From a virus, in IMG/VR virus record IMGVR_UViG_3300043570_000958, positions 1-41,593 of that record: DNA of 41,593 nt; one strand, 5' to 3'. Under the pieces are notes generated by a model. That model worked only from the letters and a program-made list of their open reading frames with translations, was not told the DNA's origin and made no database searches. Positions 4,464-33,675 of this stretch are shown here, one piece after another. How positions within the stretch are numbered: position 1 is the stretch's first letter; every line of letters begins with the position of its first letter. The translations under genes and the position numbers were made by a program.

Positions 4464-4479
4464 AACGGAATTATCCGTT
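4464..4479 (-). promoter_or_regulatory. hairpin enclosing the capsid stop codon
   Basis: Perfect 6-bp inverted repeat AACGGA / TCCGTT with the 4-base loop ATTA. The TAA stop of the capsid gene (4473-4471) lies in the loop. Together with the GC-rich hairpin 5 bases further on it makes a two-stem 3' end on the capsid mRNA. Confidence 0.45.
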
Positions 4480-5652
4480 AGTTGCTGCAGACTCAATGCG
4501 ATAGAGTGCAGACTCACGAAGGCGGTTGAAGCCTCCGAAGTAGTACCAACCGATTGTGCGGAAACGACGAAGTGCATCAATCTCTGGACCGATAACGGTT
4601 GAGATATCTGCAGCTTGTGCTTCAGCCAATGCTTCACGACCGGCAACAATTGCGCGGTAGTTGTTGGTAAATGTAACAGTACCTGTATCTGCTGCTGAAG
4701 TAACGTTAGTTGCTGTCAGAGCATAGGTAAATGTTGTTGTTGATGGTACAGATGCGATTGTAAATGTACCGTTGAGTGTTGTTGCAGTTACGCAAGCAAC
4801 TGTTACGACCTGACCTACGCCAAGACCGTGAGCAACTGCTGTTGTAATTGTTGCAACGTTTGAAGTCAACGCGCTGTTGGTGATAGTAGTGCTTGTAGTA
4901 ATACCAGCAGCCAACTTTAGACCATTGAGAACACGTGGTGTCTCAACGATGAAAGCACCTTCAATTACGCCAACTGCACCAGCCACGAATGGTGTGCGGT
5001 CAACATACTTTGAAAGTTCTTGGAATCCACCAGTACCAGTTTCAGCACGAAGATCGGCTGACTGACGTGGGTGGAGGTATGCAGCATAGAGTTCACCCAT
5101 ACGAGGCAATGCCTTGTTTGTACGTAGTGAAACAACAGCGTTGCGGATATCCGCTACTGTCATTGTGTCTACTGGTAGAACTGTTGCTGATGAAGTTGGA
5201 GCAGTACCTGATGGACCGTTTGAGTAGATAGCGTTAGTTCCTGCTGAGAGGACCTGACCAACTACGTTGTCAATTGAGTCTGCTGCGTTGTAAGCGATGA
5301 TGTCAGCAAGTGCTGAATCAACATCGTTGAATGAAGTTAGGTTCAACTTCTTTGTTGTTGTTACTGCTGAACCGTATTCGTTCAGAGTTACTGTAACCTG
5401 TGAAGGGTTACCGAGAGCAATGGAAGATACATCAGATGTTTCTGTCAATGTTGAAGTGGCTTGTGCCAAATCTGAATAGATAGAGAACACAACTGACGAA
5501 CCTGGCATTGCCTGTTGCACTGGCTTGACGTCAGCAAGGTTACGCATAACTGGAATGGAACGAAGTGCCATTCTTACATACTGGTCGTATGCTGCAGTTA
5601 CAAGTGCGCTGATCGTCGAGCTAGAGGTAGGGGTACCTGTTGGGATAGCCAT
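4471..5652 (-). CDS. major capsid protein
   Basis: 393 residues, no signal peptide, directly downstream of an acidic scaffold-like gene and followed by hairpins, the usual position for the coat protein. The start MAIPTGTPTSSSTISALVT leads into a helical arm and a region (about 85-125) of the type GNPSQVTVTLNEYGSAVTTT followed by a long helix, as in HK97-fold coat proteins. Residues about 255-330 are unlike the rest: Thr/Val-rich, with TSNVATITTAVAHGLGVGQ and TLNGTFTIASVPSTTTF, an all-beta module found as an insert in other phage structural proteins. The C-terminal part (ADISTVIGPEIDALRRFRTIGWYYFGGF) returns to the coat fold. Its Leu codons are mostly CTT/TTG, unlike the plus-strand cluster. 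Confidence 0.85.
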   Translation of the reverse strand: MAIPTGTPTSSSTISALVTAAYDQYVRMALRSIPVMRNLADVKPVQQAMPGSSVVFSIYSDLAQATSTLTETSDVSSIALGNPSQVTVTLNEYGSAVTTTKKLNLTSFNDVDSALADIIAYNAADSIDNVVGQVLSAGTNAIYSNGPSGTAPTSSATVLPVDTMTVADIRNAVVSLRTNKALPRMGELYAAYLHPRQSADLRAETGTGGFQELSKYVDRTPFVAGAVGVIEGAFIVETPRVLNGLKLAAGITTSTTITNSALTSNVATITTAVAHGLGVGQVVTVACVTATTLNGTFTIASVPSTTTFTYALTATNVTSAADTGTVTFTNNYRAIVAGREALAEAQAADISTVIGPEIDALRRFRTIGWYYFGGFNRLRESALYRIESAATNG

Positions 5653-5683: not shown

Positions 5684-6157
5684 TTATAAACCAGACTGCC
5701 TAATTAGTTCATCCAGTTCTTCTTTGCTATTTGTATTGAGTAGACGTTGCATAATGTCTGCGTTATGTTCTGGTGAAGCACCAGAATCTGCAGTATTTGT
5801 CATTCTCTTATACGCAGCAGCGTCGGCTGGATTTACATTAGGTGTTGCCTGGCTTTGCCCGAGGTCAATTCCAAATACATCGGAATATTCTTCGAGCCAT
5901 TTAGACACCGACTCTTCAGTTGGGTCAATGTCCGATGGAATAAAAGAAGCGATCTTCTGATTTACTCCGCGACTTGCGAGAGCATCCTTGATTGTTCTTT
6001 CGCGTTGCCCTTTGCTAAGGCTGTCAAACTGGCTTTTGAGATCTGCCAGTTCTTTTTCCTTTTGCTTATTGGCTTTACGTAATTGCTTTACAAGGTCATT
6101 GCTAGACGAATCTTCTGTTGTGAAGTCGTCGTCATCCTCGTAGTCATAATTGGACAT
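5684..6157 (-). CDS. capsid scaffold protein
   Basis: 157 residues from the ATG at 6157, which has GGGAGAAGAAAC just upstream; an open frame extends to 6250 without a ribosome site. The N-terminus is extremely acidic (MSNYDYEDDDDFTTED). A Lys/Glu-rich coiled coil follows (about 22-60, LVKQLRKANKQKEKELADLKSQF), then a helical C-terminus. Acidic, coiled-coil, no enzymatic motif and immediately upstream of the major capsid gene: the classic scaffold profile. No protease domain is fused or adjacent. Confidence 0.8.
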   Translation of the reverse strand: MSNYDYEDDDDFTTEDSSSNDLVKQLRKANKQKEKELADLKSQFDSLSKGQRERTIKDALASRGVNQKIASFIPSDIDPTEESVSKWLEEYSDVFGIDLGQSQATPNVNPADAAAYKRMTNTADSGASPEHNADIMQRLLNTNSKEELDELIRQSGL

Positions 6158-6194
6158 AGTGTTTCTTCTCCCTATCAGTTGGTTTGATTTCGCC

Positions 6195-6227
6195 AGCCTC
6201 ATATTCCAATGGGGATTGGATATGGCT
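6195..6227 (-). promoter_or_regulatory. leader hairpin ahead of scaffold-capsid genes
   Basis: Nested inverted repeat: AGCC/GGCT outside, ATA/TAT, then TCCAAT/ATTGGA around a 4-base loop, with small bulges, about 13 bp in all. It lies in the 130-base gap upstream of the scaffold gene, the longest gap in the minus-strand head operon, about 40 bases before the start codon. Confidence 0.45.
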
Positions 6228-6251
6228 CTGACTCCTGGACTTGTTATCACT

Positions 6252-9850: not shown

Positions 9851-12800
9851 TTATTCTCCTAACAATCTTCCAAAGAGTACATTGTATGCACTAATTGTGT
9901 TCTCATTGTATTGTGAAAGTTCACGCATTTTGATAATAGTTTCATCTTTATTCATCTGAGATAAAAATTGACTACGACCAAATTGGTCTAATTCTGCTTT
10001 AGATGATTTATATGTTTCATACAAATCTGTCATTTTACGAAGTGCTTGTGCTGTTCCTCTATCTGCCTTATCAGCTTGCTTTGAATCAAGCATTGCCTTG
10101 AGGTCGTTATAAGCATTGATACGATCAATTGCCTTCTTGCCACCTTGCGCTAGTTCTTCTTGAACTAATGGTCGGCCTGCTTTGAAGATTGTTGCCCAAG
10201 AAGTAAATTCTTGACGCAATTGTGTACGTTCAAAATCTGTTCCTGCAGTTTCAAGGCCAACTTCATATTGAGTCTTCTTGTCATAGTAACTTTGCATATC
10301 TGCAGCAGTTTGTACCTCACGAAGGAAGTCAGTTACTGTTTTGTTGCTACGAAGACCCATATCGGTCATAGTCTTATAGGCATCCCAAGAGTATCCAGCC
10401 TTGTGAGGTATCAAGAAGGTTGCACCTTGTTTGAAATCTTTGAACAGTTGTTGATTCTGCTCTACAAAATCACCAGATTCTTTGGCATATCTAAAATATG
10501 AAACAGTTGTACGATCTGATTCTGAAATTGTAAATGGAATCTGGTCTGGATAACGCTTTACCCATTCTTTCATAGCGCTATCGTAATCACCAGTTTTATC
10601 TAAGATTCCATACCATACCTGTTTGAAGGATGCTTCTCCATTACCACGTACCCAATCAGCCATCTCAGACTTTAGTTGTACTTGTGGTGAGGCTGGAGCA
10701 GTAAAACCATAGAAAACACGAAGACCAAGAATAGAAAGTGTAGTGTTCTTCAACTTTATACGATAGTCTTCAAGTTCTTTAGAAGTAAATGGGATTGGAG
10801 TTCCATCTTGTGCAAACTTTTGTTCAAGTCCGTGTCCATTTGCTTCAAGATATGTCATAGATTTACGCATAGCTGATGCGTATTGTCCATCACGTTCATC
10901 TTTATTCATTGCTGAATAAATTCTATTGATATGTGCTGGCAAAAATGCTGAAACCATTGGTTGGTCTTCTGCATACTTACCTAAAAATGTAGTTGTAATC
11001 CGATCTGCTAGACCTGGATTGAATATATCTACTAAGTTTGATGCAACTTTTATAGAAAAGCCAGATAAAGGACCAGCAAGTGTTGGAACTGCTGAATCTG
11101 GGTTCAGTGAAGGTGTCAACATCTTTAGTTTTGCACCAAATTGCACCGGAAAGGGAACCTTGAACTCTGCTGGTACGCCAAATGCTTGCATTGTGGCTTG
11201 AACTGCTCGGTAAACATATTGTGTTCCAGGATAGATGAAGTATGGTTCACCTTGATCGTCATACTGAACCCAACCTGAGTGCGTAATTCCTTCATAAGTA
11301 AGAGAAGCACGTGCTATGGACTCTGGGTTGTATCTAATACCACGATACATACGACGATAGAAATCTTCAGTGGCACGATAGAAACGAGCAAAGTTGCGAC
11401 CAGTAAATGCAAGTTGACTTTGAACTAAAGGATTATCAACATAGGCAAGTGTTTGAGCAGCAGCACGTTCTTCAACAATTTCTGCTAACTTGTATCTTGC
11501 GTTGAGTGTTGCTCGCTCAATTGCCTTAGGAGCAGTAACGCCCTTCAAGTAAGAAGCAATAAAGGCTTCTTCAAATCCAGTGCTCTTGAACTCTTTGCGA
11601 ATCTTTATCATCTCTTGCAAGACCATAGGCTCGCGTGAGAAACGCGCATTGGCATTTCCTAGCCAATCCCATCCCCATTCCATAATGGATGTGGTGTAGT
11701 TTCCGGTATCGGATATAGCTACCAGTTGTGGGCCAAGAATATATTGCGGTGCATCTGCTGCATTAGCTGGCAAGTCATCTAGTGAAATTTTACCAGTGAT
11801 TTTATATTGCCCAGTTGTTGGATCTAGTTCACGAACTTTACTAAGCAAATCTAAATTGATGGTCTTTCCATCTTGCTTTACAAAAAGTTGCTTTGCAGCA
11901 GCAACAATATTTTCAGCGTGTTTATCTCTAGTAATTCCATTTTCTTCTAAACGAAATGATTTGACAAGTTTTTCATTCTTTGAGTCATTGAGCCAATCAA
12001 GAACTTTAGAAATTGCAACTTTTTCATTATCAAGATTAGCAACTGCAATACCACCCAATTTATCATTTGAGTAATATCCAATACGCATAGCCCAAGCAAT
12101 TGAAGACGCAGTATCTGCAAGTGGTGCTTGTTGCTTTAGACCTTTAGCGCCTTTAGCACGACCAAATGCTTTTGGTAAATCATAACCAAGAGCTGCTGTT
12201 CTAACATTATACTTGCGAGTAAAATTGAGTGTACGTGTATAAGCATCAATACCAGTAAAGGAGTTTTTTCCACCTTCAACAATATCCATTAGTGCATTAT
12301 CTAAATCACCAAACCTGATTTGTTCTGCAAGTGCTTCACGATCCGCTTTAGTAAATTTACCAAGACCAACTTTTTCATAAAAGCGAGCCATCTTGCCTTC
12401 ATTGAGAGCACGTGCTGTAATTTCACGAATTGCTTTCAAATCACCATCTGCAGCTTTGACTTCTGCTCCATAGGCTTTAGCTTCTTTTTTATTGATAAAG
12501 CGTAAAACTCCACCTAGTGGATCTTGTGCTATCTTTTCAGCTTTGGTTAGACCTTCTTCAAGTCCTTTAGCAGTACGAAAACGTGTTGAAAGGCCACGAG
12601 CCTTGACAAGGCCCCAAGGAGATTCACCAATTGCAAGGTGAACCATCAAATCTTCTGCTGCATTACGAATAGCATACCTAGGACCAGCAAGAGTTGCAAA
12701 TGACCAAGCACTAGTCATTTTATCTACCCAACCAGAGTGGGCAATACCTAAGACACTTCCAATAATACCGCTACGAGCTGATAAACGGTCAATATCTTTG

Positions 12801-14521
12801 ATGCTTAGCGTAGTAACAAAGTCTGACAAATCAGAAAGAATAAGAGCAACAGATTCACCATTAGGTAGTCTGGAAGGATTATATCCATCAACATCTAATG
12901 CAAATAGTGCTTCATTTTTGCCTGCTAAAGCACGACCAATAGGTTGTCCTTCTTTGGTAACATTGATACCGCGAATATCTGCAATACTGGATTGAAGACC
13001 ATAAAAGATTTCTTTCTTTAGGCCAACCTCAGCATCGTCAAATGTTTGTGCTAACAACTTAGCATCGTTGCGAGGTAATATCATACGAGCATATAGATAA
13101 ACTTTTTGAGCAGAATCTTTAGCCGTAACTTCTAATGACTCGTTATCAAAGATAGGCACACGTTCAAACTTGGCTTTCATACGATCAATACGATATTGAA
13201 TCTGAGCCATAGAAAAACGAGCCATACCTTTAGTGTCATACTTTGGCTTGATAGCGCTAACTATTGCAGCGCGGTTATTGATTATGGTATCTGCAATTCC
13301 ATCATCAGTTGCTGCTCCACCAAAGAACTTATCGTCTACAAACTTAGAACCCATATAATCTATATTGAAAACTTTATTAGCAGTCGTTGCTGTTTTGATA
13401 CGCAATTGACGAGCAGCGTCAAGGCGTGGAACCATAACACGCTTGCGACCAATCTGGCCTTTCATCATTTCTTCTACTTGCTTTGCATTGAGAAAGAAAG
13501 CCTTAGCAGTACTAGCATCTTTGATAGGAGCATCAATATTGATAAAAGATTTTATAACTGCGTCACCAAATTCAGGTGCTGTAATTGCTAGTTGCTTCTT
13601 TGCTGCAACTGCTGCAATTTTGTCACCAGATGCAACAGCTTCACGATACTTAGTGAGTTGTTGTCCATAGGTATTCCAGAAGTTTGCTACTTGTGGACGA
13701 GCAAATACTTCTTCTACTTTACCGCCACCAACTACTACATCTAATGAATAGCGTGCAATGTCAAGAGCTTTCTTTATTTTGCCTACAAAAAGTAATGGGT
13801 CTGCATAAACACGATAGGCCGCATCTACTGCACCTGATAGTGTCTTGTACATAAAACCATTTTTGACAAGATCACCTGGAGTGATAGCGTCAATAACATT
13901 TGCAAATTGGCGACCAGGGGAATACTTTGCAGCGTTTACTTCATCTAAAGCGTCATTGAATAATGGGTCATTCTTTTGAGCCGCTAATGCAGCAATTGCT
14001 TTTTCGTCTTCGCTACCAGTGGCTGCTATTTGACTTAGTTTTTCACCTGCTGCAACACGTAGTGCAACATCAATGCGTACACTGCCATAGCGTTTCTTGG
14101 CAGTTTCAATACGATTCTGATTGAATACTTTATCGCCTTTATCGTTTGCAATATCCCAAGCGTTACCAGCACCAAATGGTGACTTACCTTCAGTTACTGC
14201 AATAGCGCCAGTACGATAGAGACGTGTTGCTAAATCTGATCCTTCTATAGCAAGACCAAACAAACCACCAATACTATAATGCCAAGCAGTACCTAGCCAA
14301 CCACGAGCAGGTTTGGTTGCAGGATCTTCTTGACCGGCAACTCTTACTAGAGCTGCCTGTTGTTCAGGAGTTTTTGAAGCATAAGCCTGTTGTGCTACAT
14401 TTTGTGGCAAGTTTGAAAGTTCACGATGGACTGATAATGTTTTGCTAAGTGCATCCATTTGTTTTAGTTCTTCAGGAGATACTCCTGCGGCAAGGGCTGC
14501 AGCTTTTAGTCTATCTGCCAT
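9851..14521 (-). CDS. giant virion protein, 1556 aa (probable ejection protein)
   Basis: The longest gene here, from the ATG at 14521 overlapping the upstream stop (TGATG). No signal peptide; soluble, Lys/Ala-rich and helical. I find no transglycosylase, polymerase or ADP-ribosyltransferase motif by eye. Recognisable stretches are WSFATLAGPRYAIRNAAEDL (about 605-625), and near 1050-1130 an aromatic Arg-rich region (NFARFYRATEDFYRRMYRG, then GWVQYDDQGEPYFIYPG) of the type seen in large polyvalent phage proteins. The size, the place between portal and scaffold, and the absence of a tape measure suggest a capsid-internal protein that enters the host with the DNA, as gp16-like proteins do in T7-like phages. 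Function unproven. Confidence 0.6.
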   Translation of the reverse strand: MADRLKAAALAAGVSPEELKQMDALSKTLSVHRELSNLPQNVAQQAYASKTPEQQAALVRVAGQEDPATKPARGWLGTAWHYSIGGLFGLAIEGSDLATRLYRTGAIAVTEGKSPFGAGNAWDIANDKGDKVFNQNRIETAKKRYGSVRIDVALRVAAGEKLSQIAATGSEDEKAIAALAAQKNDPLFNDALDEVNAAKYSPGRQFANVIDAITPGDLVKNGFMYKTLSGAVDAAYRVYADPLLFVGKIKKALDIARYSLDVVVGGGKVEEVFARPQVANFWNTYGQQLTKYREAVASGDKIAAVAAKKQLAITAPEFGDAVIKSFINIDAPIKDASTAKAFFLNAKQVEEMMKGQIGRKRVMVPRLDAARQLRIKTATTANKVFNIDYMGSKFVDDKFFGGAATDDGIADTIINNRAAIVSAIKPKYDTKGMARFSMAQIQYRIDRMKAKFERVPIFDNESLEVTAKDSAQKVYLYARMILPRNDAKLLAQTFDDAEVGLKKEIFYGLQSSIADIRGINVTKEGQPIGRALAGKNEALFALDVDGYNPSRLPNGESVALILSDLSDFVTTLSIKDIDRLSARSGIIGSVLGIAHSGWVDKMTSAWSFATLAGPRYAIRNAAEDLMVHLAIGESPWGLVKARGLSTRFRTAKGLEEGLTKAEKIAQDPLGGVLRFINKKEAKAYGAEVKAADGDLKAIREITARALNEGKMARFYEKVGLGKFTKADREALAEQIRFGDLDNALMDIVEGGKNSFTGIDAYTRTLNFTRKYNVRTAALGYDLPKAFGRAKGAKGLKQQAPLADTASSIAWAMRIGYYSNDKLGGIAVANLDNEKVAISKVLDWLNDSKNEKLVKSFRLEENGITRDKHAENIVAAAKQLFVKQDGKTINLDLLSKVRELDPTTGQYKITGKISLDDLPANAADAPQYILGPQLVAISDTGNYTTSIMEWGWDWLGNANARFSREPMVLQEMIKIRKEFKSTGFEEAFIASYLKGVTAPKAIERATLNARYKLAEIVEERAAAQTLAYVDNPLVQSQLAFTGRNFARFYRATEDFYRRMYRGIRYNPESIARASLTYEGITHSGWVQYDDQGEPYFIYPGTQYVYRAVQATMQAFGVPAEFKVPFPVQFGAKLKMLTPSLNPDSAVPTLAGPLSGFSIKVASNLVDIFNPGLADRITTTFLGKYAEDQPMVSAFLPAHINRIYSAMNKDERDGQYASAMRKSMTYLEANGHGLEQKFAQDGTPIPFTSKELEDYRIKLKNTTLSILGLRVFYGFTAPASPQVQLKSEMADWVRGNGEASFKQVWYGILDKTGDYDSAMKEWVKRYPDQIPFTISESDRTTVSYFRYAKESGDFVEQNQQLFKDFKQGATFLIPHKAGYSWDAYKTMTDMGLRSNKTVTDFLREVQTAADMQSYYDKKTQYEVGLETAGTDFERTQLRQEFTSWATIFKAGRPLVQEELAQGGKKAIDRINAYNDLKAMLDSKQADKADRGTAQALRKMTDLYETYKSSKAELDQFGRSQFLSQMNKDETIIKMRELSQYNENTISAYNVLFGRLLGE

Positions 14522-14895
14522 CAATCACCATTAGCTAATGCTTGTTGGTACAGGATTGCTATAGATCCATCAGTATCAAATGGAAGCAGTTTTGCTAAAG
14601 TATCCGAAGTCTTTACTACCGTTTTATTCATCATTAGTGCGGATGAACCAGCACCAGGACCAATATCAATTCCTTGAGTAATTGGAGTATTTGGTTGTTG
14701 CGTTTCTGCGTATAAACCAACTAATGGTTCTACTTTTACATCTGGTGTCTTAGCAAGATTTGCGCCAGATAAAATTTCTGCTGTTTCCTTGCCTTCGCCA
14801 TAGGCGATAGAACCCATTTGTAGGTTATCAGTGCGTGTGGAATATTTTCCTGGACCTGGTGGACCGGCAAGTGGATTCATTGGTGCAGTCGTCAC
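14521..14895 (-). CDS. 124-residue hypothetical protein, GTG start
   Basis: The GTG at 14895 overlaps the preceding stop (GTGA) and is preceded by GAGGAGGACAA, a strong ribosome site; the longer frame to 14940 has none. The N-terminus is Pro/Gly-rich (TTAPMNPLAGPPGPGKYSTRTDN), the remainder polar with a short helix at the end. Co-transcribed with the giant virion protein. Could be a small structural or assembly factor; unknown. Confidence 0.6.
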   Translation of the reverse strand: MTTAPMNPLAGPPGPGKYSTRTDNLQMGSIAYGEGKETAEILSGANLAKTPDVKVEPLVGLYAETQQPNTPITQGIDIGPGAGSSALMMNKTVVKTSDTLAKLLPFDTDGSIAILYQQALANGD

Positions 14896-15294: not shown

Positions 15295-17046
15295 TTATGC
15301 TGCGCCGGATATACCAGCTAGTAGTTGGGCTATATCGGGTTTTTGACCAGCAGCAGGGGCCTGACCAGCTTGTTCTTGTGGAGGTTGCTGCGAGGCAGGA
15401 GCGGGGGCCACACCTGCTGCTGGAAGTTGTTGTTCCATTCCAGGTGCCATAGGTGGCGCGGCTGGTGGAGCTGGAGGCATAAATGCCTTTTCAATAATGT
15501 TTTCTAACGCTTGTCCTTTTTGGCGCCCTTGGATAACAGTTGCGATGCGACTGATAATTTCTGAAGGGTCTTGACCTTGCGCCGCGAGAGCCGGTATCGC
15601 CTGTGCATACTGTGCAACAGCAACACGCAAAGAATCGCGCATCTCTTCAATATCAACACGTTGTTCCTCCTGAGTTACATTGAGGTCCATTGGAATCTCA
15701 CGACGTACATAGTCGCGGGAAACAAGTTTGTCTGAACGCATTTGTAGTAATGCAATGATGGCGCGGTTAGGGTCCATACCAGACATAATTCCGTAGCGAA
15801 CATCTACTCCATACTCGCCCTTGATATCACGAGATGGGGTGTACTTGAGTACATAAGGTGTACCGTCATCGGTTCCCTTGATAGTCTTTGGAATACCACC
15901 AAATACTTTTTCATCTGCTTCAAAGCAAAGGGATGTAAGTTCAGTAAAGAGTCTAGCAAACTGTGCCTGTGCTGCCTTGATCTGTGTGTCAAAGCCTGCT
16001 TGTAGGGCTTGTACGCCACGACCTGTGACAACGGATGCGTCAATGTTGCCTGAACGAGATTCAGGATAGCGAGCACCCATACGAAGTTCACGCTCTAGTA
16101 CACCGGACTCAGTAAAGACTCCAGGTGGTAGTTCTAGTGGAACTCTGCGGATACCTTGTGGGTTAGCAGAGCGCATAATGGCATCTGGCCCAAGGGCTAA
16201 CTCTTGCACATCTTGTGGGATAGCAATAGGTGCTTGAATAGATTTTTCTGCTGCTTGAATCTGCAAGATAGCAAAGCGAGCACGAGCGAGTTGTACTGAG
16301 AGTACATCATCGAACTGACCACGAGCTTCACCGTCTAGGGATGAACGCATAACAGTACGGGCCATACACTTGCCAAGAACGTTTGGAGTATTAGATAGAA
16401 CTAGATTCTTACGCTCTGGTAAGTAGAGCAAGTCTTGATCCTTGTCGTGGTACTTGACCATTGAGACATAAGGTGAGCCTAATAAGTAGTTATTTCTACC
16501 AAGGATTTGCTCGTAGAACTCTGGGTATTGCGCTGCTAGAGTCTCAGTATCGCTAATGATTACCTGTGTAACAGATAAGGTGCGACCATAGCGGTCTAGT
16601 TCTGGATAAATACCAAATGGGTTGAGCATACGGATACGTGGGTTGTTATCATCGTAGTCCATCTCGACCATACCAACACACATACCATAGGTGTTATACC
16701 AGTCAGCGCCGGTATACATCTGCAATTGTAGGTCAGAGTTTGAGATATAAAAATTGGCAATACGAGTTCTAGTATCTGCTGCCTTGCGTGCAGTATCGGA
16801 AACCATATTAGTTGCTGAACAGTTGAAGGATGGCAGTGGTGCCATCGCTTCTGCTAGGTCGCGTGCTGCTACGTCAATGAAGTTTGCAACGAGAGGCTTA
16901 GGATAGTCCTCGGAGAACATAGAAGGAAATACCTTTGAGATATCTCCTTGACGTACCGAAAGCACGTCGCGCATACGCTGGTCACGCGCTGCTGACCGTG
17001 TGCGTAACCGCGATAGTTTCGCGTCAACTTCTTTGACTGATAACAA
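15295..17046 (-). CDS. portal protein
   Basis: 583 residues starting at TTG 17046, preceded by AGGAAACCAA. Second gene block after terminase, as expected. The N-terminal 60 residues are helical and Arg-rich. The middle has WYNTYGMCVGMVEMDYDDNNPRIRMLNPFGIYP in segments, typical of the portal wing, where capsid-vertex subunits carry beta strands. Then follow a long central helix and clip/stem region (about 265-400) and a Pro/Ala/Gln-rich disordered tail (about 505-570). Portals form the dodecameric ring through which DNA is pumped by terminase and to which the tail attaches. Length is within the usual 450-700 range. Confidence 0.85.
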   Translation of the reverse strand: MLSVKEVDAKLSRLRTRSAARDQRMRDVLSVRQGDISKVFPSMFSEDYPKPLVANFIDVAARDLAEAMAPLPSFNCSATNMVSDTARKAADTRTRIANFYISNSDLQLQMYTGADWYNTYGMCVGMVEMDYDDNNPRIRMLNPFGIYPELDRYGRTLSVTQVIISDTETLAAQYPEFYEQILGRNNYLLGSPYVSMVKYHDKDQDLLYLPERKNLVLSNTPNVLGKCMARTVMRSSLDGEARGQFDDVLSVQLARARFAILQIQAAEKSIQAPIAIPQDVQELALGPDAIMRSANPQGIRRVPLELPPGVFTESGVLERELRMGARYPESRSGNIDASVVTGRGVQALQAGFDTQIKAAQAQFARLFTELTSLCFEADEKVFGGIPKTIKGTDDGTPYVLKYTPSRDIKGEYGVDVRYGIMSGMDPNRAIIALLQMRSDKLVSRDYVRREIPMDLNVTQEEQRVDIEEMRDSLRVAVAQYAQAIPALAAQGQDPSEIISRIATVIQGRQKGQALENIIEKAFMPPAPPAAPPMAPGMEQQLPAAGVAPAPASQQPPQEQAGQAPAAGQKPDIAQLLAGISGAA

Positions 17047-27075: not shown

Positions 27076-27726
27076 CTACTCATTCCCTTCACCGACTAGC
27101 AAAGCTCTGGTGGCGTCTGCACCGTGTGCTAAGTAGTAGTCATTGATATCCATACCTGGAGGTAGTGTAACAATAGTTGAGTTCATTACCTCATTAGCCA
27201 CACGCTTACTAAACTCAGCGCCAGGATTAGACCCATCTTCTTTTATATCGTTATCACCTACTACAAATACAGTTTCATAACCACCAAATAACTTAGGGAA
27301 GTGTGGCTTCCAAGCCTGCACTCCTGGTACTCCCACTGCTGGTATACCTAATACACCGCTAGTAATAATTGCATCTAGTTCACCTTCACATACAACAATA
27401 TATGGTGACATATGTGTTATATCACATACGTTATAGAGATGAGCCTTCTGTCCTGTAGGACTGCCATACTTAGGTTTGCCTTCATCTGTTCTGCGAAACT
27501 TGAAACCTACACACATACCGGTAGCAGTAATGTATGGAATAGATATCCAACCTTCATACATCTCGTGACCATTGGCAGGATCAGTGACTGTACCTAGCTG
27601 GTACTGCGCTGCTACCGTCTCAGATATCCCACGTTCGTCTAGCACGAGTAGAGTTTCCGGACTTACCTCTTGGGCGTATCTCTGCGCCGCTTCCAGTTGC
27701 AATTTCAACTGCACGTTTGAGGCCAT
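27076..27726 (-). CDS. primase TOPRIM-domain protein
   Basis: 216 residues. VVCEGELDA at 111-119 (catalytic Glu114) and VFVVGDNDI at 153-161 (Asp158, Asp160) are the two TOPRIM metal-binding motifs of DnaG/gp4-type primases. An N-terminal region with ERGISETVAAQYQLG and GWISIPYITATGMCVGFKFRR precedes them, as in such enzymes. No helicase domain is fused. Start (GGAG seven bases upstream) lies 107 bases inside the zinc-finger primase gene in another frame. The pair should make RNA primers with the DnaB-like ATPase upstream. Confidence 0.85.
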   Translation of the reverse strand: MASNVQLKLQLEAAQRYAQEVSPETLLVLDERGISETVAAQYQLGTVTDPANGHEMYEGWISIPYITATGMCVGFKFRRTDEGKPKYGSPTGQKAHLYNVCDITHMSPYIVVCEGELDAIITSGVLGIPAVGVPGVQAWKPHFPKLFGGYETVFVVGDNDIKEDGSNPGAEFSKRVANEVMNSTIVTLPPGMDINDYYLAHGADATRALLVGEGNE

Positions 27727-27997
27727 CGTTGAACTCCATATTCTCTAGGATGCACACTAGGTTTGCAGCGTTACCGCCCTTACCACAGGTGTGACAGAAA
27801 TATAAATTATCTATTGTGTTGATTACTGCAGACCTGCGTGAGTCAGTGTGCAAGCAACACCGCACTGATACTGCCTTGCCTTCTCTTACTTCTCCACCGT
27901 AGTGCGAAACTATTGCCCCTATGGGGATTGAATTTGCATCAACGGAACCTTTGAATCGTCGCCCTTTACCCAACCTAGACCAGTCTTGTGTTGACAT
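27620..27997 (-). CDS. primase zinc-binding domain protein
   Basis: 125 residues from the ATG at 27997 (AAGGGG upstream); a GTG at 28003 is possible. CCLH at 47-50 and FCHTC at 67-71 give the CHC2-type zinc finger; GKGGNAANLVCILENMEFNDGLKRA follows as in DnaG-type primases. It lacks the catalytic domain, which is the next gene in a different frame. The zinc finger recognises the template start site. Its 5' end also overlaps a small Cys/His gene. Confidence 0.85.
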   Translation of the reverse strand: MSTQDWSRLGKGRRFKGSVDANSIPIGAIVSHYGGEVREGKAVSVRCCLHTDSRRSAVINTIDNLYFCHTCGKGGNAANLVCILENMEFNDGLKRAVEIATGSGAEIRPRGKSGNSTRARRTWDI

Positions 27998-28098
27998 ACG
28001 CACCCCTTACCTTCACACTTCTCGTGCCAATGGGCTGAACGCTTTAGGTGTTTAGATTTATTTTCTTCGCCACCTTTGAGGCAAGATATACATATCAC
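27919..28098 (-). CDS. small Cys/His-rich protein
   Basis: 59 residues from a GTG at 28098 inside GTGA. CISCLKGGEENKSKHLKRSAHWHEKCEGKGCVCQHKTG in two parts: C3, C6, His residues, then CEGKGCVCQH, a likely zinc-binding mini-domain of a type common in actinophages. The tail overlaps the primase zinc-finger gene by about 80 bases. Function unknown. Confidence 0.55.
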   Translation of the reverse strand: MICISCLKGGEENKSKHLKRSAHWHEKCEGKGCVCQHKTGLGWVKGDDSKVPLMQIQSP

Positions 28099-28836: not shown

Positions 28837-29047
28837 CTACCAGTACAACCTTGTTGATTTTATAAACAAGATCGCCTTGTTCATCTTTGACTAACTCGAC
28901 AATACCTGATTGAAGCAGAGCACCGACAAAGTTGGTCAGATCTACCTTGATTACATCAAGGTCTTTACGTTGTATATTTATATCTTCACGTAACGCATCA
29001 ATCCTAAGATTTTCTCGATACTTATTTGACAACTGTTCTTCAGCCAT
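28814..29047 (-). CDS. 77-residue hypothetical protein
   Basis: The ATG at 29047 (AGGGAG; TAATG overlap) is preferred over 29071. Helical N-terminal half (NLRIDALREDINIQRKDLDV), then a beta pair ending YKINKVVLVDESIQQD. Could be a helicase partner by position only. Confidence 0.5.
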   Translation of the reverse strand: MAEEQLSNKYRENLRIDALREDINIQRKDLDVIKVDLTNFVGALLQSGIVELVKDEQGDLVYKINKVVLVDESIQQD

Positions 29048-29889
29048 TATGCTCCCTGTCTTGCTATCCATATTGCATCTCGTTGATACATTCTACCAAG
29101 TTCATCGTCATCACCTATCTGACAAGCAGCATAGTTGACAAAGAGTGTTGCATACCGTGAAGCATCCGCTGTGTGTGGCCCAAAGCGATTCTTCACGGCT
29201 GCAACACTAAGCATTGCATTGGCTGGATCATAGCCTAGAGTAAGTATCAGCGCTGGTAACTGACTGACCTTACCGTGTATAGCACGTCGTGCTGGTGGTT
29301 TAGATGGTGAACCGTACTCAGTTTGCTCAGAGACGTGGTGCAGTACCAGTACGCAAGCCTCGGTCTTGCGTGCCATATCGTGCAACTCCATCATAATAGC
29401 TCGCAGACCTGCCCATTCGTTATCAGTCTCTGCTGCTACGTTCATTAGGTTATCTATAATAATTAGTTCAGGAGCAATTCCATATAACTCTACATATGCT
29501 TTTATCTCTAACTCAATATCATCGAGTGATGGTGAAGAGTCAAAGACCCACTTGATATGTGCAAGTTTATCGAACTGCTTATCGTAGTAGTGCTTATCGT
29601 GAGACAAGTTCATCTCAACGTTTACTTGTGAATGACCAGAGGCTTGTGCTGCTGCCCTCATCATTACTGTAGTTGTATCTGTGTCTGCACTAAAAAACAA
29701 GGTTGGAACCTTAGCCTTCATTGCATATATCAAAGCGAACATAGACTTACCAGCATTAGGAGCTGCAGCAACCATACATACTTGGCCTCTGCGGAACTTG
29801 ATCTGTTCCTTTGCAAGTCCTACCCAGACATCCGGAAGTGGTGTTGCTTTGGTAAGCACTCCACTCCAGGCTCTGGATAAGTCAAGCAA
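29047..29889 (-). CDS. DnaB-like replicative helicase ATPase
   Basis: 280 residues from a TTG at 29889, which has GAGGAGGAAG at good spacing and overlaps the WhiB stop; an ATG at 29943 would overlap WhiB by 62 bases and has no ribosome site. RecA fold: Walker A AAPNAGKS at 42-49, Walker B PELIIIDNL at 140-148, then VLVLHHVSE at 180-188 and a KNRFGP arginine-finger-like motif near the end. It lacks the N-terminal domain of full DnaB, as many phage helicases do. Likely unwinds DNA with the split primase. Confidence 0.8.
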   Translation of the reverse strand: MLDLSRAWSGVLTKATPLPDVWVGLAKEQIKFRRGQVCMVAAAPNAGKSMFALIYAMKAKVPTLFFSADTDTTTVMMRAAAQASGHSQVNVEMNLSHDKHYYDKQFDKLAHIKWVFDSSPSLDDIELEIKAYVELYGIAPELIIIDNLMNVAAETDNEWAGLRAIMMELHDMARKTEACVLVLHHVSEQTEYGSPSKPPARRAIHGKVSQLPALILTLGYDPANAMLSVAAVKNRFGPHTADASRYATLFVNYAACQIGDDDELGRMYQRDAIWIARQGA

Positions 29890-30148
29890 CGTCTTCCTCC
29901 TCGATACTAATGCGCTTTTGTCTTCTAATATATTTGCGATCATCGGCAGTTAGACCGCCCCAGATACCATATGTTTCTTTTGCTATGCCCCATTCGGCGC
30001 ACTCACTTTTATGTATACAAGAACCACAAATAGACTTTGCAGTTCTTATGTCAGTATTACTAAGGCCTCCCTTTTCTTTTTCAGGAAACCAGAAGTCACC
30101 GCCGACTGTGGCACAACTAGGAGTCTCATAAAAACGAGGCTCCCGCAT
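29882..30148 (-). CDS. whiB: WhiB-family iron-sulfur transcription regulator
   Basis: 88 residues. C12, C41, C44 and C50 (SCATVG, then CGSCIHKSEC) bind the 4Fe-4S cluster; GIWGG at 61-65 is the family turn; the tail RKYIRRQKR is the basic DNA-binding end. WhiB proteins occur in Actinobacteria and their phages, where phage WhiB can act as a dominant-negative of host WhiB2 (known from TM4). They bind sigma region 4, so partnership with the phage sigma-like factor or host sigma is possible. Strong host marker. Confidence 0.92.
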   Translation of the reverse strand: MREPRFYETPSCATVGGDFWFPEKEKGGLSNTDIRTAKSICGSCIHKSECAEWGIAKETYGIWGGLTADDRKYIRRQKRISIEEEDVA

Positions 30149-30151
30149 TTA

Positions 30152-30541
30152 TTATCGGACCCAGATAGTGTCGCACTTATCCATCGCACCCTTAGGTGCA
30201 GCGCACATCCAACCCTTCCAAGGACCACGAGCAGAAGTACCGGTACGTAGAGTCATTGCTCCGTGACGACAAACAGGATCAGTTCCTGTTACTGCTGCAA
30301 CAACTGGTGTTGCGTTGAACTGTTGCGCGATAGTTGCAACTGTTGGTGCTACAACTGGTGCAGCAGGTGCTACAGAACCACCGCTTAGTTCAGCTCCAGT
30401 GAGTCGGATGTTAGAAGCGTTCATTGACAAGTCAGCAAGACCTGTCTCTAGTTCTGCAATTGTACTTGCATAAAGATTGATAAGAGTTCCATCGTGTAAC
30501 TTGTAATTGATTTGAAACTTTGTTGATTCTGGTGCAGCCAT
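30152..30541 (-). CDS. protein with C-terminal zinc-ribbon-like motif
   Basis: 129 residues: a beta-rich N-terminal domain (KFQINYKLHDGTLINLYA), an Ala/Pro/Val linker (about 55-85) and a C-terminal PVCRHGAMTLRTGTSARGPWKGWMCAAPKG-type motif followed by DKCDTIW, written here in parts; C-H...C...C could hold zinc. Such proteins recur beside the Cas4-like nuclease in actinophages. ssDNA binding is possible; unproven. Confidence 0.6.
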   Translation of the reverse strand: MAAPESTKFQINYKLHDGTLINLYASTIAELETGLADLSMNASNIRLTGAELSGGSVAPAAPVVAPTVATIAQQFNATPVVAAVTGTDPVCRHGAMTLRTGTSARGPWKGWMCAAPKGAMDKCDTIWVR

Positions 30542-31498
30542 TTACTTTCCTCCACTTGGTTTGATGTTTAGTCTAATAGATTCTTTACCAACAACCTTTG
30601 GTATAAAACCTAATAGTTTTTCTACTTGTTCAGAGTCAACTGTCTCACGACCCTTTACTGTTGTCCAACTGATTTGGATACCACTTGCAGTAGTACCCGT
30701 TGTTCCCTCGAAGCTAGTCTTCAAGGATTCTTTTTCTTTCTCAAGTTCTTTTATCTTGTTATCTAACTGTAAATACTTCAATGCGTGTGTGTCAACTTGT
30801 GCGTCCTCAATCACGACTTCACTAAGGACGATACGTTCTTTTATCAAACCAACACAACCCATCTGACCCGATGCGTCGTAGTATTGACAGTAACTTCTAC
30901 AGAAGGATTCATCCTTCTCAGGTGCTGGTGCTTCGGTCATTGCTTTGACATTGGCAAGCCACTGCAAGGCTTCTAAGGCACTTGCTTCATCGTATGGTTC
31001 TGTATGTACCTTGATATCTTTTTCATCACCGTCGCGTGCAATTGCCACAAGGTTGACAGTCTTTACTTCATAACCATTCTTAGACAAGAGATAGCCATAG
31101 ACTTGTACTTGCCACCTCTGCTGGTTACTTGGAAAGTAACTTAGGTTCTTTACTTTAGAAGTCTTCCAGTCAATGACTGCGCCAATACCTGGAACGAATA
31201 AGTCAACGTGTGCTTTCATATCACCGTAAGCAACTTCAGTTTCCACTAGGTAATCTTTACCTTCAGGATCTAAATGAGTAATAGCTTCTTCAATTGCTGC
31301 GTGGATAGCAGTACCCATAATCGCTGCAAGTTTAGATTGATTATCATTAGTCTCAGGCTGTGCGTTGAGTCGGTACCAAACCTTACGACGGCAACCACCT
31401 ATCTCTGATGGCCCAACCTGTGTCTGTTTACTACGGTCACGAGTTGCATCCTTAGCGTGCAGTACGTGGAGTAGTAACTCCTTCGGGTCTTCAATCAA
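30542..31498 (-). CDS. Cas4/RecB-family nuclease with Fe-S cysteines
   Basis: 318 residues from a TTG at 31498 (GGCAGGAG upstream). PD-(D/E)XK motifs: GTAIHAAIEEA (His66), AHVDLF (Asp99), VIDWKTSK (Asp110, Lys112), QVQVYGYLL. C36 with C200, C204 and C215 form the set of four cysteines that hold a 4Fe-4S cluster in Cas4/AddB-like nucleases. A Lys/Glu coiled coil (about 238-265) follows. Probably degrades or resects DNA ends in recombination-linked replication. No cas1, cas2 or repeat array is nearby. Confidence 0.85.
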   Translation of the reverse strand: MIEDPKELLLHVLHAKDATRDRSKQTQVGPSEIGGCRRKVWYRLNAQPETNDNQSKLAAIMGTAIHAAIEEAITHLDPEGKDYLVETEVAYGDMKAHVDLFVPGIGAVIDWKTSKVKNLSYFPSNQQRWQVQVYGYLLSKNGYEVKTVNLVAIARDGDEKDIKVHTEPYDEASALEALQWLANVKAMTEAPAPEKDESFCRSYCQYYDASGQMGCVGLIKERIVLSEVVIEDAQVDTHALKYLQLDNKIKELEKEKESLKTSFEGTTGTTASGIQISWTTVKGRETVDSEQVEKLLGFIPKVVGKESIRLNIKPSGGK

Positions 31499-31714: not shown

Positions 31715-32272
31715 CTATCCCCTTTCTTGGACTACCAACTGTAAGGGCTTGCCTGTATTAGCGTCAAGTACCGACGCAATCTCAACTGCTTTCCGGGCGT
31801 GTTTACTTGCGTAAACTAATTCCATATCGGGCTTACAAATGGAGTAAAGATAACCAAGTGCGAACTGACTACCAGAACCTATGGCGTAGACGTCACGATT
31901 ACTAGCGAAGAAAGATAGATCGCAGGCAATGCGAAAGAGATTGCCATTGAAAGCAACAAGGTAGTCAAAACCGCCCTCTTTGTCTACCTTGTTGTACTCG
32001 TAACTATTGTCATTGAAAGCGTTGATGATACTGGGAATGACTTTCTTTCCCATAAATTGCACTGGGTCCTCACCTTTATAAATCGGCGGCTTCCAGTTAT
32101 AGGAGAGTATATCTCCTGGGCGAGTATCACCAGAGATGCCTATGAGAAACTTACCAGCCTCGACTATCTTAGGTGTAGAGGTCGCAAGAGTTACTAGGTT
32201 ATCTTCTGTGATCTGTGAGTCAGCTACTAGTACAGCAAAGTCAATACCCTGTATCCCTGCGATTGTTGTCAT
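31715..32272 (-). CDS. proteasome beta-subunit-like Ntn hydrolase
   Basis: 185 residues. MTTIAG: after Met removal Thr is first, as in proteasome beta subunits. Asp18 in LVADSQ and Lys35 in TPKIVE sit at the expected Asp17 and Lys33 places (Lys one residue further). IGISGD, and AIGSGSQFALGYLYS with the conserved Gly-Ser-Gly, follow as in the family. Close to normal bacterial beta/HslV length. It should form an N-terminal-nucleophile peptidase or assemble with host proteasome subunits; no ATPase partner is encoded. It heads the minus-strand early operon. Confidence 0.8.
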   Translation of the reverse strand: MTTIAGIQGIDFAVLVADSQITEDNLVTLATSTPKIVEAGKFLIGISGDTRPGDILSYNWKPPIYKGEDPVQFMGKKVIPSIINAFNDNSYEYNKVDKEGGFDYLVAFNGNLFRIACDLSFFASNRDVYAIGSGSQFALGYLYSICKPDMELVYASKHARKAVEIASVLDANTGKPLQLVVQERG

Positions 32273-32341: not shown

Positions 32342-32638
32342 GTGAGGCGAATAAAACGGGTGGGCGCCCTTCAAGGGCGCACAGATGGTAACCGTACAGT
32401 AACCCTGCGGTTCCGTCTACCAACCCTGCGCCTATTCAGGCGCACAGAACGCCTCCCACAAGCCTTTGGAAGCGATCTGAGAGCCTTTGGACCCCTTCAC
32501 GTATGTCCTTGTGGGTCACAAGTATTCAACGTTATGGCGAGCTTTGAGGACTTTGAACTAGTCTGGTACTTCTTAGATGCAACTTGTGTCAACTGCGGGA
32601 ATCTAGTAACAATCCCTTGCCCAATAGATAAAGAATAG
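32342..32638 (+). CDS. lone plus-strand zinc-ribbon protein
   Basis: The C-terminal 47 residues are a convincing protein: HVCPCGSQVFNVMASFEDFEL, then ATCVNCGNLVTIPCPIDKE, with CxC and CxxC knuckles, matching a common small phage zinc ribbon. The frame opens at a GTG at 32342 but the first 45 residues are Arg-rich and unlike the family, and the DNA there holds hairpins, so the true start is probably later (a CTG near 32476 has GGAAG upstream). No ATG is in frame before the ribbon. Flanked by minus-strand genes on both sides. Confidence 0.6.
   Translation: MRRIKRVGALQGRTDGNRTVTLRFRLPTLRLFRRTERLPQAFGSDLRAFGPLHVCPCGSQVFNVMASFEDFELVWYFLDATCVNCGNLVTIPCPIDKE
32364..32380 (+). promoter_or_regulatory. 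GCGCCC hairpin upstream of zinc-ribbon gene
   Basis: GCGCCCT / AGGGCGC, 7 bp around a 3-base loop. The same GCGCCC/GGGCGC stem occurs at 19708-19723 in the main control region. Confidence 0.5.
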
Positions 32639-32649
32639 TTTTATGGCAC

Positions 32650-32683
32650 AAAAAAAGCGGCCCCCGAAGGAGCCACTCTTTTT
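32650..32683 (-). terminator. rho-independent terminator after lysis genes
   Basis: On the minus strand an 8-bp stem (32676-32669 with 32664-32657, two G-U pairs) closes on a UUCG tetraloop and runs into seven U. A-rich and T-rich flanks allow it to act on the plus strand too. It closes the late operon after the holin-like gene and separates it from the convergent zinc-ribbon gene. Confidence 0.85.
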
Positions 32684-32706
32684 GTTGCCTCGCGCTGATG
32701 GGCTAA

Positions 32707-32906: not shown

Positions 32907-33416
32907 TTATGACTTGAAGACTGGCTTACCAAAACCAACGATGTACACCGGTAGTGACTTCTTGATTTTAGAACCATTCTTTGCTGTATACGCACGACGT
33001 TTGAGGCATACCTCACCACCGTTGCGCTGGTCGCCCGTCTTATCTGGGCTAGTGTTACCTTCGATAACGTTGATGGTTCCATCTCCGTTGTTCTTAGTAA
33101 CAATTCCTACGTGGCTGATGCGATTGAGAGCATCTCCTGGGAAATCAAAGAAGACGATATAACCTGGCAGTGGTTCTGCATCAGCTACATCTTCCCATTG
33201 GTTGTTCTTCATAAATGCTTTAGCACCTACAACTGTTGATACGCAGTTAGGGATCTTTAGATTTACTGCGTTGGCACACCAGTTGACAAAACTGCCACAC
33301 CAAGGCAAGAAGTTAGACTTTGTAAAGGCTCCGTACTTTGTTTCGTTTTCTTTAGGTCCTTCAATTGTTCCGACCTCTGCCTTAGCAGTTTCAATAAATT
33401 CTTTACGCTGTCCCAT
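32907..33416 (-). CDS. CHAP-domain endolysin
   Basis: 169 residues from the ATG at 33416 (AAGGACGACA), overlapping the previous gene by 14 bases. CHAP amidase/peptidase: Cys40 in PWCGSFVNWC, His102 in ISHVGIV and a polar residue in VIEGN (Glu119, Asn121) form the papain-like triad. It lacks a separate wall-binding domain. It cuts peptidoglycan peptide bonds after the holin opens the membrane. Confidence 0.88.
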   Translation of the reverse strand: MGQRKEFIETAKAEVGTIEGPKENETKYGAFTKSNFLPWCGSFVNWCANAVNLKIPNCVSTVVGAKAFMKNNQWEDVADAEPLPGYIVFFDFPGDALNRISHVGIVTKNNGDGTINVIEGNTSPDKTGDQRNGGEVCLKRRAYTAKNGSKIKKSLPVYIVGFGKPVFKS

Positions 33417-33675
33417 TGTCGTCCTTACTCTTATCCTTGAGTCCATTACTTGCCAGTACTGCTCCTAGACTTCCTGTGAGGAAGACTGTCAGAGTAGTAA
33501 GCAATTCAATAAAAGCCCTGTCATTGGGAGCTTGTTCACCTAGTGGTTGAGTTACAAATATCAAAGCCCAAAGTATTCCAAAGACTGAGCCTAGAAATAC
33601 TAAGGCTAGGATTACTCCTATAAATACGATCAGTCGAGCCTTTAGTTGCTCATTGGAAAATCTTTGTCTAGCCAT
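33403..33675 (-). CDS. two-span membrane protein, holin candidate
   Basis: 90 residues from the ATG at 33675 (GGAAGG upstream). Two clear membrane helices: LIVFIGVILALVFLGSVFGI with the following LWALIFV, and LLTTLTVFLTGSLGAVLAS; charged tail KDKSKDDNGTA. Immediately upstream of the endolysin, the usual holin position and topology. Confidence 0.65.
   Translation of the reverse strand: MARQRFSNEQLKARLIVFIGVILALVFLGSVFGILWALIFVTQPLGEQAPNDRAFIELLTTLTVFLTGSLGAVLASNGLKDKSKDDNGTA

Follow-up and report, generated by a model that had tools for sequence, protein, structure and literature searches.

A predicted proteasome-like hydrolase of the HslV/BPH type is an accessory gene with two genome positions in a clade of actinophages

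Phage-associated relatives of the proteasome have been described before. Thus, a 2021 survey introduced the names PPH and AAH for group I proteasome homologues that occur in phages, PPH being about 140 residues long and without helix H2; no Actinobacteria-specific phage with AAH was found in that survey (PMC8665760), a gap in AAH-type homologues on which the present case bears. A Salmonella jumbo phage has two HslV-like genes and no HslU (PMC7823757), an Alteromonas phage has been annotated with a proteasome-like gene (PMC7289586), and other phage homologues are annotated as protease, proteasome subunit or HslV. Although such proteins are widespread, we found in the literature no tested function for any phage proteasome-like protein. 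The gene reported here is of this already known kind, to which PHROG 1040 and numerous annotated genes of other phages belong. What is new is the actinophage clade, the changed genome position and a complete relative that lacks the gene, which together argue against both testable mechanisms of the initial annotation, namely, that the protein substitutes for the host proteasome, blocks it or redirects it, or that it processes virion proteins.

The window, i.e., the whole stretch of DNA that was analysed, is one IMG/VR record of 41,593 bp with a GC content of 44.0%. Its minus strand (the initial annotation had given no strand) holds a 185-residue ORF at exactly 31715–32272, across which the plus strand is closed by stop codons; the translation is marked by the segments MTTIAGIQ, ADSQ, PKIV, GISGD, AIGSGSQFALG and LDANTG.

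31715–32272, minus strand: predicted HslV/BPH-type (proteasome-like) Ntn hydrolase gene, 185 residues, without propeptide (profiles, AlphaFold2, Foldseek)

That this gene encodes a proteasome-fold Ntn hydrolase, as had been read from the letters in the initial annotation, is predicted concordantly by Pfam, PHROG, AlphaFold2 and Foldseek. The protein matches PF00227 (Proteasome) with 48 bits against a curated cut-off of 22.4 (E 1.5e-12), and PHROG 1040, 'peptidase HslV family', over its full length (5.4e-28). It scores far under the cut-offs of the NCBIfam HslV equivalog models (22–24 bits versus 137 and 158) and under those of the archaeal/bacterial 20S beta models (34.9 versus 224 and 12.1 versus 191.9 bits). 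The PDB search was marginal with the single sequence; with a profile of 45 relatives, it returned BPH, the beta-proteobacterial proteasome homologue, at 9.6e-10 over the full length, and then HslV at 1e-8. The AlphaFold2 model (pLDDT 91.3, pTM 0.86) has both helix pairs, H1/H2 and H3/H4, with helices at residues 50–59 and 70–88. Comparison of this model with 20S beta and HslV, which the initial annotation had suggested, confirmed the Ntn fold: the top Foldseek match was BPH (E 1.4e-11, TM 0.76), followed by yeast 20S beta2 and HslV, with a probability of 1.00 for BPH, 20S and HslV. A relative from the Planktophila-phage group described below was modelled with a pLDDT of 92.3 and shows the same elements in the same order and the same fold.

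The initial annotation had also picked out an N-terminal MTT, Asp18, Lys35 and a GSGS segment, and this reading is correct, with an M-T-T-I start, D18, K35 and G132-S-G-S135. The Thr/Ser1-Asp17-Lys33 triad and the oxyanion glycine of PF00227 proteins are present, as listed here with their conservation among 180 homologues, 42 of which are less than 90% identical to each other.

32267–32269, minus strand: Thr2 codon, presumed N-terminal nucleophile after Met1 removal (Thr in 179/180, Ser in 1/180)
32219–32221, minus strand: Asp18 codon, Asp17 in HslV/20S numbering (invariant, 180/180; aligns with E. coli HslV)
32168–32170, minus strand: Lys35 codon, Lys33 in HslV/20S numbering (invariant, 180/180)
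32138–32140, minus strand: Gly45 codon, probable oxyanion-hole glycine, putatively equivalent through its G-x-x-G motif to Gly47 of 20S beta (Gly in 172/180, Ala in 7)
31868–31879, minus strand: G132-S-G-S135 active-site loop (G132 and G134 invariant, 180/180; S, T or C at 133)
31754–31765, minus strand: D170-A-N-T173, which by alignment probably corresponds to the D-x-x-S pair close to the proteasome active site (D/N at 170 in 172/180, Thr at 173 in 171/180)

Relatives were gathered with single-protein queries, and the metagenomic ones were fetched with short peptide patterns, some of which overlap the catalytic motifs. A set free of this bias consists of 17 sequences, i.e., the window protein and the INPHARED phage records found by tblastn. 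All 17 keep the catalytic layout, and phages of Vibrio, Pantoea, Geobacillus, Moorella, Tenacibaculum, Psychrobacter, Arthrobacter and Microbacterium are among them. In the 163 metagenomic relatives, the start codon is without exception followed by T-T-I (M/V/L-T-T-I), and most have few in-frame codons ahead of it, so that a propeptide is lacking. Median dN/dS is 0.065 for the window gene versus its group (with synonymous sites near saturation), 0.077 within the window-like group and 0.153 in the Planktophila-phage group. Between window-like genomes the protease is 84–86% identical and ranks among the better conserved non-structural genes. The sequence comparisons thus point to a gene under strong purifying selection that is maintained as a functional enzyme.

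In a maximum-likelihood tree, the proteins of the window, the Planktophila phages, the DSL-LC01-like phages and phages of Arthrobacter and Microbacterium form one clade (97/93), with E. coli HslV and actinobacterial 20S beta both apart from it; a separate clade holds phage and plasmid proteins that come for the most part from Proteobacteria and Firmicutes and usually start with M-T-C-I. By sequence and modelled fold, we place the protein with HslV/BPH-type proteins and not with 20S beta subunits. The window protein and the Planktophila-phage group share 31% identity, and because branches are long and their order inside the actinophage clade is unsettled, one relocation looks the same as two acquisitions. 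Members of the family are also found in phages that infect Vibrio, Aeromonas, Geobacillus and other bacteria, and a library of predicted viral structures contains dozens of similar folds, Gordonia phages included. The phage profile finds a match in just 2 of 296 sampled actinobacterial genomes. The gene has therefore not been copied recently from a common host gene, and capture of a host 20S beta gene is ruled out by tree and profiles. Two further observations concern the wider family. Aeromonas phage 2L372X has two tandem HslV-family genes (1899–2860 of locus L096), both matched by the phage profile, and a two-subunit arrangement is conceivable there. In locus L411, a divergent 182-residue actinobacterial ORF (MTTVLVMRAEGLILADSQ...) resembles an uncharacterised cellular Ntn hydrolase.

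The initial annotation had treated the DNA as that of an actinobacterial phage, which stands on two grounds. First, the window carries a WhiB gene (29882–30148), indicating that the host is an actinobacterium. Second, it is syntenic gene by gene, across the whole genome, with OX376640 and OX376641 (phages LanE43-AprE7/F5), which we equate by name and description with the cultured phages LanE43AprE7/F5 isolated on 'Ca. Planktophila' strain LanE-43 (PMC10202952). This synteny makes Nanopelagicales (acI) the likely host order. Streptomyces Beephvirinae phages are more distant relatives that have head and replication genes in common with the window. The features that matter for the argument are the following.

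4471–5652, minus strand: major capsid protein, with no protease adjoining (domain scan)
5684–6250: scaffold-like gene, separate, beside the capsid gene
15295–17046, minus strand: portal gene; in Planktophila phages its homologue is followed directly by the protease gene (44–45% to annotated Streptomyces phage portals; synteny)
29047–29943, minus strand: DnaB-like helicase of the replication module (domain scan)
29882–30148, minus strand: WhiB-like regulator, a marker of an actinobacterial host (PF02467, 5.3e-13)
30542–31498, minus strand: Cas4/RecB-type PD-(D/E)XK exonuclease, the conserved downstream neighbour in window-like phages (in 80/80 group A loci)
32649–32684, minus strand: intrinsic terminator with a 16-bp stem, UUCG loop and T run (RNA fold −24.1 kcal/mol, z −5.75)
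32907–33446, minus strand: CHAP endolysin, with which the late module ends ahead of the terminator (domain scan)

In the window-like phages (group A), the gene order is lysis genes, protease, Cas4-like exonuclease, the 30152 gene, WhiB, DnaB and primase, and the protease is present in all 45 DnaB-anchored window-like loci. The terminator ends the late/lysis transcript shortly before the protease gene; given its strength and its place between the lysis genes and the protease, the protease gene probably begins the replication-side transcript in the window. It was found by folding, having been missed by the companion terminator scan. The promoter scan of the window did no better than shuffles and gave no convincing promoter, and neither the Rfam nor the tRNA scan of the window yielded a hit.

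Several other elements of the map are worth recording. The 434-bp gap before the protease contains several G+C-rich hairpins at 32354–32490 (e.g., 32354–32386, −13.7 kcal/mol, z −3.3) with no Rfam match. Between the exonuclease and WhiB genes lies a conserved protein of 129 residues (30152–30541). Its C-terminal portion hits PHROG 364 (ribonucleoside reductase class II), a similarity that may go no further than a zinc-binding tail. The primase apparently occupies two overlapping frames, a zinc-finger part at 27620–28003 and a Toprim part at 27076–27726, and is split in Streptomyces phage Treat too. A 1557-residue gene without Pfam or PHROG match (9851–14524) fills a slot between the portal and scaffold genes that is conserved in relatives, and Streptomyces phages have a similarly large gene in it. 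At 1280–2200, a collagen-like protein of glycine-rich triplet repeats adjoins a glycosyltransferase (208–1299); the pair is possibly a virion surface or receptor-binding module.

The Planktophila-type phages (group B) have the rest of this map unchanged and the protease gene immediately after the portal gene, a position found in 80 of 80 Planktophila-type loci, all chosen by having the protease gene. Among 64 portal-anchored loci, nine have no protease gene there, nor is there a copy elsewhere in those records. One such relative, G319, is complete, with 39,932 bp, an exact 127-bp end repeat and a portal about 85% identical to that of the Planktophila phages; it has homologues of TerL, portal, the 1557-residue type, scaffold and capsid, and no Ntn gene. 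Streptomyces phage Treat has homologous TerL, portal and capsid and again no Ntn gene. The protease gene is therefore accessory, i.e., optional, in these relatives. Its neighbours in unrelated phages are ThyX/MazG, DHFR/ThyA/RNase H, PhoH, WhiB or HNH genes and not head genes.

We propose, with about an even chance of being right, that the protein is an accessory, HslV/BPH-type threonine peptidase, free-standing, catalytically competent, ATP-independent and self-compartmentalising, which is made during infection and is neither a virion part nor a host 20S subunit. What is observed are the sequence, the modelled fold, the conservation of catalytic residues, purifying selection, the genome position and dispensability in relatives. 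Methionine aminopeptidase cleaves before Thr; removal of Met1 by the host enzyme would expose Thr2, which Lys35 and Asp18 would activate as in HslV. The most likely assembly is a homo-oligomeric double ring of stacked subunits resembling those of BPH and HslV, and this ring would cut unfolded proteins or peptides without an ATPase of its own. Expressed from the replication-side transcript during infection, the protease may act as an accessory enzyme of host takeover or protein turnover.

Besides fold, conservation and selection, the proposal draws on the placement of the gene after a strong terminator and upstream of the exonuclease, WhiB, DnaB and primase genes. It also agrees with the remark in the initial annotation that no phage ATPase partner is present, which holds for the scanned genes: among the scanned window proteins, which take in only part of the small ORFs, there is no AAA+ unfoldase family, and the DnaB-like helicase and the terminase are the sole ATPases. 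The post-portal position in the head module of Planktophila phages sits oddly with a purely early gene. The family is divergent, with 31% identity from one phage group to the other, and its members may have different substrates and oligomeric states; since monomeric non-protease relatives such as connectase exist, fold and triad are no proof of proteolysis.

The strongest rival, possible and clearly less probable, holds that the protease serves specifically in anti-defence or host takeover and cleaves a single host protein or a small set of them, e.g., defence proteins or sigma/transcription factors, instead of working as a general turnover enzyme. Absence from some close relatives and location at two genome sites mark the gene as accessory and mobile, which is what arms-race selection would be expected to produce, and its neighbours in the window, WhiB included, are of an early type. 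However, the very low dN/dS and the high conservation across window-like phages speak against a rapid arms race, and the model has no specificity insertion such as that of connectase.

It is unlikely that the protein is no stand-alone protease, be it an Ntn amidase, a connectase-like peptide ligase or a peptidase powered by an unfoldase of the host. The proteasome-like family does include a ligase, homology within it implies neither proteolysis nor self-assembly (PMC8665760), and the DSL-LC01 relative carries an extra basic C-terminal tail. Connectase, however, has no H1/H2 and bears a two-helix insertion between S3 and S4, whereas the models here have H1/H2 and no S3/S4 insertion; no unfoldase was found among the scanned phage proteins. 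We would give similarly little credence to a bolder scenario, in which freshwater actinophages carry an autonomous, early proteasome-like barrel that removes specific host proteins and supplies streamlined, 20S-less hosts with a compartment protease, the move between replication module and portal slot reflecting recurrent recruitment, alternately as a takeover and as a virion-assembly enzyme.

A head-maturation (prohead) protease of the lineage, i.e., a proteasome-fold counterpart to the ClpP-fold prohead proteases, is very unlikely. It was attractive because in 80/80 protease-anchored Planktophila-type loci the gene occupies the classical slot next after the portal gene, a position in keeping with the initial suggestion that the protein processes virion proteins; and, as also stated there, no other maturation protease is visible beside the capsid genes, no other protease family occurring among the scanned window proteins, which take in only part of the small ORFs. 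This reading loses ground on the portal-anchored loci: the nine of 64 without the gene, which have no second copy, comprise the complete G319, with its TerL, portal, scaffold and capsid homologues, and eight other contigs. Treat has the same head module and no such gene, and in the window the gene is far from the head genes. Since G319 and Treat have the same head genes without the protease, capsid assembly does not require it, unless the gene-minus phages use an unrecognised substitute.

Least probable of all is that the protein co-assembles with, replaces or poisons an actinobacterial host 20S proteasome, as the initial annotation had envisaged for a 20S beta-like subunit: the superfamily is the same and PF00227 genes occur in 131 of 296 sampled Actinomycetota species, mostly two per genome, but the protein is closer to BPH and HslV than to 20S beta and apart from the latter in the tree, phages with related genes infect Vibrio, Aeromonas, Geobacillus and other bacteria from which a 20S proteasome is not known, and no PF00227 match was found in sampled actinobacterial genomes below 1.6 Mb, the likely acI hosts having genomes of 1.35–1.55 Mb (PMC5301498).

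The actinophage clade is abundant in lakes, and its intact catalytic residues, natural gene-minus relatives and two genome positions offer a handle on function, which cultured host/phage pairs (Planktophila LanE-43 with E7/F5) allow to be tested.

Compared with 20S beta subunits, the window protein lacks both the propeptide and the partner alpha, its Thr following directly after the start codon; related phage records have one PF00227 locus each, and no alpha gene was seen in the window. HslV (ClpQ) aligns with it at the T-T-I start, Asp17 and the GSGG motif and is likewise a compact subunit without C-terminal extension, but no HslU was found, the equivalog scores are far too low and the two are separate in the tree. 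PPH is excluded by the length of 185 residues and the presence of helix H2. The protein is possibly an AAH, a group I type that, like PPH, is found in many phages. Plasmid-borne relatives from Rhizobium, Paraburkholderia and Streptomyces are similar to the range described for AAH, and these sit in a neighbouring clade, outside the actinophage clade. BPH (PDB 5ovs, 5ovt and 5ovu) is the best structural and profile match, and both proteins have no propeptide, possess H1–H4 and have no known unfoldase (PMC8665760); identity is about 21%. BPH forms a heptameric double ring; the window protein was modelled as a single chain. The annotated genes of PHROG 1040, as in Actinomycetia phage DSL-LC01, Microbacterium phage Pumpernickel and Arthrobacter phage Hum25, have the same N-terminus and catalytic residues, but only 24–34% identity to the window protein and other gene neighbourhoods. 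Finally, the Planktophila phages LanE43AprE7/F5 (OX376640, OX376641) share the genome architecture, with one unannotated copy of the gene and the same predicted fold in a close relative, and differ from the window in that their gene stands directly after the portal gene and its product is 31% identical.
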